DNA of 45,482 bases from Geodermatophilus sp. YIM 151500 (lineage in GTDB: Bacteria > Actinomycetota > Actinomycetes > Mycobacteriales > Geodermatophilaceae). Each line of letters begins with the position of its first letter. The stretch's first letter is position 1. The stretch lies in the NCBI RefSeq assembly GCF_025716945.1, contig NZ_JAOVZT010000001.1, positions 333,282 to 378,763 on the forward strand. Reading direction: 5' to 3'. The notes below the pieces were generated by a model. It was not told the DNA's origin. It made no database searches and saw nothing but the letters and a program-made list of their open reading frames with translations. Made by a program: the position numbers and the translations under genes. This document shows positions 34,545-35,966 of the stretch, piece by piece.

Positions 34545-34782
34545 GGCGCACCGCCCAGGCGGTAGAGCTGGGACTTGCGGGCGACGCGGATCCCCAGCGC
34601 GTGTGGAGGTGGAGCGTCCCTGCGGAGCCGTCGTCGTGGCGGCGCCTGGCAGGACGCAGACCTGCGACCTCGGGACCATCCAGGATGACCGGGAGTTCGG
34701 TGGTGGCAGCGAGGGCGCATCGTGATCGGTCGTCCGGACGGGTACCGGCCCGGGTCCGGCACCCGCCGTCACGTACCGGCGC

Positions 34783-34848
34783 TCATCCGCAGTCGCAGTC
34801 GCACGACTCGTCGTAGTCGGGGTCGCAGACGCAGGTCAGCAGGAACAT
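34783..34848 (-). CDS. Cys/Asp-rich 21-residue metallothionein-like microprotein
   Basis: The ATG at 34848 lies six bases after a perfect GGAGGTGA and opens a 21-codon frame ending at 34783. It overlaps the last 13 bases of the merR-like gene in another frame. Five of 21 residues are Cys (6, 8, 16, 18, 20) in a CxC-x7-CxCxC pattern, interleaved with five Asp and one Glu (for example CDCDC). There is no membrane segment and no recognised family. The composition and coupling to a metal-type MerR regulator suggest a metal-binding or sensing peptide. This is inference: a frame of this size can arise by chance, but the ribosome site is the best in the neighbourhood. Confidence 0.6.
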   Translation of the reverse strand: MFLLTCVCDPDYDESCDCDCG

Positions 34849-35276
34849 GTGGGGTCACCTCCCTCCGTCGACGGGCACCAGGTGCCGGGGCTCGGCGGAG
34901 GGCACTCGCTCACCGGCAACGCGGCGGCCATCGCGGCCATCTCCGCTCGAAGTGCGGTCAGCCGTGCGATCTCTGCGTCCACCTCCGCGAGCCGGCGCCG
35001 GAGGAGCTGCTCGGCGGGTTCGCAGGGGCAAACCCCCGTGTCCCGGACCGCCAGCAGGTGCCGGATGTCCACGAGGCGCAGACCGAGTCGCTGCGCACCC
35101 CGGATGAACCGGAGGCGGTCGACGGCGGCGGCCTCGTAGGCCCGGTAGCCGCCCGGAGTGCGGCGCGGGGGCGGCAGGAGCCCCACCCGCTCGTAATAGC
35201 GGATGGTGTCGGGCCGCACCCCGACGGCCGTCGCCAGGTCCGACACGCGCAGCGCCTGCACAGCGGTGGGAGACAC
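34836..35276 (-). CDS. MerR-family, heavy-metal-type transcriptional regulator
   Basis: The 146-residue regulator has an N-terminal winged helix (LRVSDLATAVGVRPDTIRYY then ERVGLLPPPRR) and the second helical pair (YRAYEAAAVDRLRFI). A dimerisation coiled coil (AEQLLRRRLAEVDAEIARL) follows. Cys residues fall where metal-type MerR proteins bind ligand: GVCPC just before the coiled coil, and Cys residues in the tail (SECPPP, TWCPS and a terminal TCSC). The GTG at 35276 (MSPTAVQALRV) sits almost at the predicted transcription start of its own MerR-type promoter, so the message is probably leaderless. The metal cannot be named. The next gene overlaps its end. Confidence 0.9.
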   Translation of the reverse strand: MSPTAVQALRVSDLATAVGVRPDTIRYYERVGLLPPPRRTPGGYRAYEAAAVDRLRFIRGAQRLGLRLVDIRHLLAVRDTGVCPCEPAEQLLRRRLAEVDAEIARLTALRAEMAAMAAALPVSECPPPSPGTWCPSTEGGDPTCSC

Positions 35277-35283
35277 GGCGCGG

Positions 35284-35319
35284 ACGCTAGACCTTGGAGC
35301 GGGCTCCAAGGTCAAGCTC
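35284..35319 (-). promoter_or_regulatory. MerR-type promoter/operator of the regulator
   Basis: Perfect 11-bp arms GACCTTGGAGC (35290-35300) and GCTCCAAGGTC (35303-35313) flank GG. On the minus strand TTGACC (-35) and TAGCGT (-10, 35289-35284) bracket this dyad with a 20-bp spacer. That over-long spacer is the hallmark of promoters untwisted by MerR activators. RNA would start at or next to the GTG at 35276. No divergent gene is present, so the regulator and the microprotein gene are the evident targets. Confidence 0.85.
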
Positions 35320-35468: not shown

Positions 35469-35540
35469 AGCGGGCGCCGACCCCGCAGGCGGTGCTCAGG
35501 ACGGCTGTGGAGAGTGACCCTGACCGCGCGACGGGGTCGG
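35469..35540. repeat. Copy 1 of a 72-bp duplicated segment (vapC 3' end)
   Basis: By eye this matches 38102-38173 at about 62 of 72 positions, with the first 20 bases identical (AGCGGGCGCCGACCCCGCAG). It spans the last 14 codons of the VapC gene plus 27 bp beyond its stop. Confidence 0.85.
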
Positions 35541-35966
35541 AGCCGTCCTCGGTGCGAGCCGGAATCCCGTCGCCTCGGCTCCTGAGCGCAGCCGCTGGTC
35601 CCAGGCTGCGAACAGGAGCTCGTCGATGCCGACGGCGAGTGCGCTGGCCAGGTGGACTGCGTCGCCTCCGCGCAAGGCGTGCTCGCCGGCCAGCCGGCCC
35701 GCGCGGGCGGCGACCTCCTCGGTGAGCTCCACGGCCCGGGTGGCCGCCCAGTACTCCTCCCAGGCCGCCTCGGCCTGCCGTTGCGCGTCCGCCTCCAGTC
35801 GGTGGTCCCGGCCGGCGGCGGCCAGCGCGGCACGCACCTCCGGATAGGCCAGCCGGCTGGAGACCGCCGCGTCGCAACCGTCCCACAACGCCGCCGCGAG
35901 GTCGCTGGAGTCCTCCTCCACCACGAGCTTGACGAAGGCACTGGAGTCGAAATAGACGATCGCCAC
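35496..35966 (-). CDS. VapC-like PIN-domain ribonuclease toxin
   Basis: The 156-residue PIN-domain toxin is of the type II VapC class, probably an RNase. The acidic active-site set is intact: Asp7 in VYFDSSAFVKL, Glu43 in YPEVRAAL, Asp102 in GGDAVHLASAL and Asp123 in AAWDQRL. The GTG at 35966 lies nine bases after the antitoxin stop, so the pair is one operon. The natural fold ends near GFRLAP (about 139). The Pro/Ser-rich tail beyond it and the stop codon lie in a segment duplicated at 38102. Confidence 0.92.
   Translation of the reverse strand: MAIVYFDSSAFVKLVVEEDSSDLAAALWDGCDAAVSSRLAYPEVRAALAAAGRDHRLEADAQRQAEAAWEEYWAATRAVELTEEVAARAGRLAGEHALRGGDAVHLASALAVGIDELLFAAWDQRLRSGAEATGFRLAPRTAPTPSRGQGHSPQPS

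Follow-up and report, generated by a model that had tools for sequence, protein, structure and literature searches.

The DNA analysed here, referred to as the window, is a stretch of 45,482 nt from the soil actinobacterium Geodermatophilus sp. YIM 151500 (NZ_JAOVZT010000001.1, 333,282-378,763; GCF_025716945.1). Its minus strand carries, behind a promoter with an internal dyad, a gene for a MerR-family regulator with a CPC motif (CPC-MerR) and a tiny Cys/Asp-rich gene, which overlaps the end of the regulator gene (stop 34838-34836) by 13 bases (Table 1). The micropeptide is read from ATG 34848 down to 34783 and displays Cys at positions 6, 8, 16, 18 and 20 together with five Asp. The longest mechanical merR ORF starts at ATG 35393, upstream of the promoter, and the most likely start is the GTG at 35276, 7 nt past the -10 element. 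A hairpin possibly marking the transcript end follows the micropeptide; in the window it is not stronger than shuffled sequence, while across the family the hairpins after the peptide stop reached z below -2 in 24 of 61 cases versus 3 of 61 at control positions. A PIN-domain gene (Pfam PIN, 7.1e-11) is located at 35496-35966(-), just upstream of the merR-peptide unit.

Table 1 Features of the merR-micropeptide locus, in coordinates of the window
Feature	Position	Strand	Remark
Micropeptide gene, 21 codons, Cys/Asp-rich, product MFLLTCVCDPDYDESCDCDCG	34783..34848	(-)	ORF reading and comparison with relatives
Shine-Dalgarno (SD) sequence GGAGGTGA of the micropeptide	34855..34862	(-)	Six bases ahead of ATG 34848
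CPC-type MerR-family regulator, 146 aa (P0003)	34836..35276	(-)	Start GTG 35276
Autoregulatory promoter/operator TTGACC-TTGGAGCCCGCTCCAAGGTC-TAGCGT	35284..35315	(-)	Dyad inside 20-bp spacer, 7 nt before GTG
Possible transcript-end hairpin 3' of the micropeptide	34735..34768	(-)	Without T run; z -0.53

The CPC-type regulator and its operator

The regulator has the HTH and dimerization domains of the metal-sensing MerR family (COG0789 type) and matches Pfam MerR_1 (1.6e-18) and MerR-DNA-bind (6.9e-18). The best NCBIfam models were those of MerR, ZntR and CadR, with every score below cut-off, and the equivalog cut-offs were not met for MerR (93 versus 150.85 bits), ZntR (81.1 versus 167.95), CadR-PbrR (84.2 versus 151.45) or CueR (71.2 versus 147.4). 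The closest solved structures by sequence are B. megaterium MerR 4ua1 (2.6e-32) and CadR, and a fold comparison of the regulator model placed CadR first, with CueR and MerR also matching. In the predicted structure (mean pLDDT 83.7, pTM 0.54), C83 and C85 precede the dimerization helix, yet the prediction only confirmed the MerR fold, as a dimeric metal site is invisible in a monomer.

The Cys residues of the regulator are found as C83-P-C85 ahead of the dimerization helix and as C125-x8-C134 in a C-terminal loop. C85 aligns to the Cys at the start of the dimerization helix of MerR and CadR, which we take to be a metal ligand in those proteins, and the C125-x8-C134 spacing is that of mercury MerR. 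Metal-sensing MerR proteins are expected to have at least two of three metal-ligand Cys (PMC1526738), and this criterion is met by the aligned C85 and by C125 and C134 in the loop. The CPC motif is invariant across 29 aligned members and is replaced by CAC in one additional member (L171). Some members retain the peptide but lack the third sensor Cys (after W133; C134), namely L055, L064 and L162, so the metal site is not fixed.

The 20-bp spacer and its dyad agree with the published description of MerR-type promoters, in which a palindrome lies inside a 19/20-bp spacer (PMC1526738). A sigma-70 promoter scan found nothing, as expected for a spacer of 20 bp. The operator consensus across the family is TTGACCTTGGAGnnnnCTCCAAGGTTTACCGT, and a dyad in a promoter just before merR was present in 69 of 73 CPC/CAC loci, 49 by a strict rule and 20 as variants identified by eye; no such dyad was found either way in the remaining four (L027, L075, L163 and L165). 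Even though the strict rule permitted spacers of 18-21 bp, the spacer was 20 bp in all 49 strict matches. The first start codon lies 6-7 nt past the -10 element in 39 of these 49 loci, and the MerR message is therefore probably near-leaderless, which remains an inference. Comparison thus shows a CPC-MerR behind a promoter with a ZntR-like dyad that ends a few bases before the regulator's own start codon.

In its own genome, the operator was found once at up to three mismatches, the other match being the same palindrome reversed, and within this search CPC-MerR thus seems to control its own operon only. Among 108 family genomes, 19 had an operator match, and the 21 sites found there all lie at most about 60 bp ahead of a MerR-family gene. 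This gene was of the CPC type in 16 cases and another MerR in five, one of which (L121) faces away. In genome G289, the operator stands before a MerR gene broken after 37 codons.

Association of the micropeptide with CPC-MerR

Relatives came from two sources, a search across genomes of the family (112 genomes) and named genome contigs that were scanned (65 loci). MerR relatives were found in Geodermatophilus, Modestobacter, Micromonosporaceae, Nocardioides, Georgenia, Knoellia and Ornithinimicrobium, as well as in Pseudonocardia, Prauserella, Glycomyces, Lentzea, Jiangellales and an Acidimicrobiia MAG. At a MerR identity of at least 54%, an SD-led Cys-rich ORF stands at the MerR stop in 49 of 51 distinct loci, the exceptions being L059, where the MerR frame is shifted, and L075, where the operator is missing too; below 54%, a loose peptide match was seen in one of 38 rows (L086). 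Comparison thus shows a Cys-rich peptide of 11-31 aa directly after MerR, with its own strong SD and overlapping or abutting the MerR stop.

Of 72 distinct rows with a CPC motif, 61 have a separate SD-led Cys-rich peptide and three have it fused, so that peptide and CPC-MerR are coupled in 64 of 72. The natural in-frame fusions place the Cys segment on the MerR C-terminus (L133, L149 and L153). The uncoupled rows comprise L075 without operator or peptide, L163 and L165 with a pump instead, L132 and L154 with a thioredoxin-fold gene instead, L156 with the peptide elsewhere, the frameshifted duplicate L116, and L155 at a contig end; a second CPC-MerR copy in genome G048 is also without peptide. 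The 105 rows outside the CPC rule gave seven loose peptide matches, of which L171 (CAC) and L028 (a fragment of a frameshifted gene) are family members and five lack an SD. No SD-led Cys-rich peptide was thus found in the 103 other MerR rows, several of which are fragments. Neither set of rows is a random sample, since they were gathered by MerR similarity, operator and profile. Viral contigs contained 38 MerR loci, whose 32 tabulated rows are all non-CPC, and phage records gave three Salmonella matches, two of them annotated as Zn(II)-responsive regulator.

A search of 396 Actinomycetota genomes with the MerR profile A1 (E up to 1e-39) gave 23 CPC loci in 23 genomes, with a Cys-containing product directly downstream or fused in 22. 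This product was a micropeptide in 13 loci (L244 by a TTG or GTG start), a fusion in three (L167, L239 and L250), a Cys-rich protein of 63-98 aa in three (L249, L251 and L253, the start of L249 being chosen by us), a thioredoxin-fold protein in two (L242 and L252), and in L245 a short peptide, MTKPKPIPYEPSCPDCPID, with two Cys only. In the remaining locus (L237, genome G139), nothing of the kind stands beside MerR, and a second operator copy with one mismatch leads into an SD-led solo peptide, MPLRDDPLDCPCDDCPPGCCSLG (L258), elsewhere in the genome. This is the only one of ten operator-like sites without a CPC-MerR behind them that is followed by an SD-led Cys-rich peptide, and an exact operator-plus-SD pattern for solo peptides retrieved this one case again and no other in 396 genomes, a set nearly identical to that of the operator search. 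A class sample had the MerR in six of 394 genomes, five with micropeptide and one fused, and the phylum sample includes two of these genomes as well; the peptide was absent from all 27 non-CPC loci of the phylum and class searches. There is overlap between the samples: rows of the 72/105 table recur as most of the 23 phylum loci and as almost all non-CPC loci, and profile A1 itself contains, among its 29 rows, 8 loci that the operator search had retrieved from the same 396 genomes.

Composition was determined for 61 peptides from 60 loci, which is not the same list as the 61 peptide-bearing CPC rows. The peptides are 11-31 aa long (median 21) and consist of 33.6% C, 14.8% D and 10.1% G with only 0.6% F, Y and W, arranged with CC, CxC and CxxC motifs, and thus meet the metallothionein criterion of a Cys-rich, aromatic-poor composition. 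Nine micropeptides scanned, including that of the window, had no match in Pfam or NCBIfam and none to a curated metallothionein family.

Read in its three frames, the peptide span has Cys shares of 0.327, 0.029 and 0.003, and the peptide frame is kept while its relation to the MerR frame varies among loci. In some relatives, a TGA within GGAGGTGA serves as the MerR stop, whereas in others MerR translation would pass it, and three loci have a MerR frame that continues into the peptide. Across 21 pairs of relatives, the 135 aligned Cys codons were identical in 111 cases, silently changed in 17 and non-silently in 7, versus 98, 21 and 68 of 187 for other codons (Fisher p 4e-5 for silent versus non-silent changes). 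As these counts rest on alignments prone to match Cys to Cys, the ten closest pairs weigh most, and there the amino acid was changed at 1 of 65 Cys codons versus 19 of 102 others. The Cys codons appear to be under purifying selection, and no such selection was seen outside them in the codon counts of the 21 pairs.

It could be objected that the ORF arose by chance or as a by-product of the MerR tail, for which its small size, and nothing else, speaks. A fixed micro-ORF rule (a length of 8-50 aa, an ATG or GTG start, an SD-like sequence, and a minimum of 4 Cys and of 18% Cys) matched only 34783-34848(-) on both strands of the whole window and nothing in 17 background loci (112,074 strand-bases). 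Together with the association with CPC rows, the composition and the conservation of Cys codons among 61 peptides in several frame relations to MerR, this all but excludes a chance ORF, and the explanation was rejected. Comparison shows that the tiny gene is real; its translation is inferred. An earlier note, made from the sequence alone, had claimed the ATG at 34848, a perfect SD six bases before it, the Cys and Asp positions and the 13-base overlap with MerR, all of which held. The case it named as refuting, that close MerR orthologues lack the frame, its start or its Cys, did not occur at the 49 of 51 loci that keep the SD-led frame, while its expectation of mostly silent changes held for the Cys codons and not for the rest of the peptide.

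Products in place of the micropeptide and neighbouring genes

The Streptomyces plasmids pFRL3 and pFRL4 and the M. abscessus plasmid pGD22-1 carry CPC-MerR without the peptide. Here, MerR is divergent to a P-type ATPase, the dyad in the 20-bp spacer faces the pump, and a second operator-like site stands after the pump gene and before the gene for a protein with an HxHxH stretch. Because of this second site, the sensor appears to have more than one target in the pump plasmids. The ATPases divergent from CPC-MerR in these M. abscessus and Streptomyces plasmids (L163:3845-5860(-) and L164:3808-5817(-)) have a CSC motif where P1B pumps usually have CPC or SPC. The proteins behind the second operator-like site (L163:3430-3834(-) and L164:2998-3726(-)) show HIHAH and PxPA stretches and have no Pfam match above cut-off. 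Two Rhodococcus plasmids do carry a peptide, MHDCCEDPMCPPELCGCGC, which has no entry in the incomplete PLSDB gene table.

In L242 and L252, small thioredoxin-fold proteins (with CPVC, CPDC and SCC) occupy the place of the micropeptide. The Cys-rich proteins of 63-98 aa in L249, L251 and L253 have CxCGC and CGC blocks and could possibly be larger metallothioneins; they have no Pfam or NCBIfam match above cut-off, only weak matches to DUF883 and the sll1863 family. That the same sensor can be accompanied by a pump, by a chelator or by a thiol protein suggests the detoxification of a thiophilic agent.

The agent need not be a metal, and the unit may respond to thiol or electrophile stress, with CPC as a redox or electrophile sensor and the peptide as a thiol reserve. 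This is supported by the invariant CPC with a variable third Cys and by the thioredoxin-fold protein replacing the peptide in two members. However, C85 aligns to the dimerization-helix Cys of MerR and CadR, the operator is near the ZntR palindrome, and a P-type ATPase takes the place of the peptide in three plasmids, which makes this alternative unlikely.

The clustering of neighbouring genes drew on ORFs lying no farther than 3 kb from 37 named-contig loci, and on 9 kb of the window. In the largest cluster (19 loci), dissimilar ORFs and shadow ORFs are strung together; judged by reading single members, without a family scan, it includes an FAD protein in Geodermatophilus and Modestobacter and, in Glycomyces, a ThrRS. 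Arsenic-type genes (ArsC-like, permease) appear to be close to some loci and GalU- or Dxr-like genes to others, again by our reading. No neighbour common to several genera was seen among the clustered loci. Conserved neighbours were rejected as a decisive pointer to the metal.

Short Cys-rich ORFs are also known from mycobacteria, where polycysteine leaderless short ORFs (Canestrari et al. 2020, cited in PMC7790235) attenuate downstream genes (PMC9031893), and the micro-ORF could in the same way be a cysteine-responsive attenuator of a downstream gene. The many TGC codons in a short actinobacterial ORF and the enrichment of hairpins just past the stop speak for it. However, unlike the mycobacterial ORFs, the present ones are SD-led and lie 3' of merR rather than at the 5' end, so the criterion of a leaderless 5' ORF is not met. 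Moreover, no neighbour common to several genera was seen among the clustered loci, and fusions, larger Cys-rich proteins and a solo gene would be senseless as attenuators. We regard this alternative as very unlikely.

A proposed metal-response circuit and known systems

The reading we prefer is that the locus is likely a self-contained, autoregulated two-gene unit responding to a soft metal (or to thiol stress), with a micro-metallothionein-like peptide as its effector; the metal, the translation and the binding are inferred. In the proposed mechanism, merR and the peptide would share one message and apo-MerR would hold the promoter down. Held between C83/C85 from one subunit and C125/C134 from its partner, a thiophilic ion would underwind the spacer, so that regulator and peptide are switched on at the same time. 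With Cys making up about a third of its residues and Asp, Gly and Pro as fill, the peptide would then chelate the ion as a micro-metallothionein, leaving less free metal and closing the loop. A soft ion (Cd, Pb, Hg, Zn or As(III), none being singled out) is inferred as the inducer from the C85 alignment and the mercury-MerR-like spacing, with C134 lost in some members. The peptide would most likely chelate this ion, yet binding itself is an inference, and the fusions leave an action on the sensor possible.

The earlier note had proposed a minimal metal-response unit in which MerR switches on itself and a metallothionein-like buffer or sensor peptide. Comparison supports this unit, as members share a common MerR-type promoter, the operator is single in its genome, and three fusions and one solo peptide were found. 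Still a matter of inference are a metal as the inducer and its identity, the translation of the peptide, and the role of the peptide in buffering metal or in tuning the sensor. Against this explanation, no expression, ribosome-profiling, mass-spectrometry or metal data stand behind it, and peptides of such length could be quickly degraded.

In general, the parts are of known kinds, a MerR sensor and a metallothionein-like chelator. CPC-MerR resembles ZntR, CadR, PbrR and MerR in its fold, the dimerization-helix Cys (C85), the C-terminal Cys loop and the dyad within a 19/20-bp spacer, and the operator form ACCTTGGAGTCGACTCCAAGGT (G322) differs from the ZntR consensus ACTCTGGAGTCGACTCCAGAGT (PMC1526738) at 4 of 22 positions. 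Unlike these regulators, it has an invariant CPC and falls below all listed NCBIfam cut-offs, only its own operator was found here, and a micropeptide stands downstream instead of an exporter or mer genes. A recent functional parallel is CadR-Zrd of Pseudomonas aeruginosa, in which a MerR-family sensor induces a small Cys-containing protein proposed to sequester Zn and Cd (PMC12301328); however, Zrd has two zinc ribbons and is encoded at a separate site, whereas the peptide of 11-31 aa described here directly follows its regulator. Bacterial metallothioneins such as SmtA/BmtA and MymT are high in Cys, with CC, CxC and CxxC motifs and few aromatics, as are the micropeptides, which are much shorter. 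Judged by title and abstract, no paper found in the library searched, which lacks most subscription papers, describes the CPC-MerR and micropeptide pair.

The regulons of MerR-type metal resistance usually consist of a transporter and a regulator (PMC1526738); the usual output here is a thiol peptide of 11-31 residues, small enough to escape notice. The recurrence of the pair across many actinobacteria suggests, by inference, a minimal self-contained system for catching toxic metal. A bolder reading, towards which the evidence does not quite tip the balance, is that of a new class of minimal metal-homeostasis module, where the chief and often only target of CPC-MerR is its own message, and a sensor and a sink, or a metal-transfer partner that some lineages have fused to it, form a closed loop without pump or enzyme. 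The micropeptides (down to MTDDCCGTGCC) would then be, to our knowledge, the smallest genetically encoded metallothioneins. Should the peptide bind metal, hardly any complete metal-response circuit would be simpler, and the pair would provide a natural test of the minimum size of a metallothionein and a ready sensor/sink part.

Finally, it could be speculated that the peptide is a partner of MerR rather than a bulk buffer, handing over or stripping metal and thereby setting the switch threshold and shut-off. The in-frame fusions, the fused Cys-rich tail on a non-CPC MerR (L259), the coupling in 64 of 72 CPC rows and the lack of a further operator match in its own genome all speak for such a role. 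However, Cys pattern and length vary without a conserved surface beyond Cys and Asp, unlike a docking partner, larger Cys-rich proteins or a pump can replace the peptide, and in one genome it lies apart from merR. This alternative is thus considered unlikely, and a micro-metallothionein-like effector remains the preferred reading, with the fused and free forms of the peptide offering a natural experiment on a metal buffer tuning its own sensor.

Two further arrangements were observed. L259 (G311:C286) encodes a non-CPC MerR to which the tail ECSCGGACGTAGCSCGCNCCADNKA is fused, and its dyad promoter contains TTGAAG..CTTCAA. In L139, L141 and L144, two different Cys-rich micropeptides follow in succession behind one MerR; of these two types, one (..GGCPCCGCPCGDCGG.. 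or a close variant of it) is also found on its own after MerR in L143 and L145.
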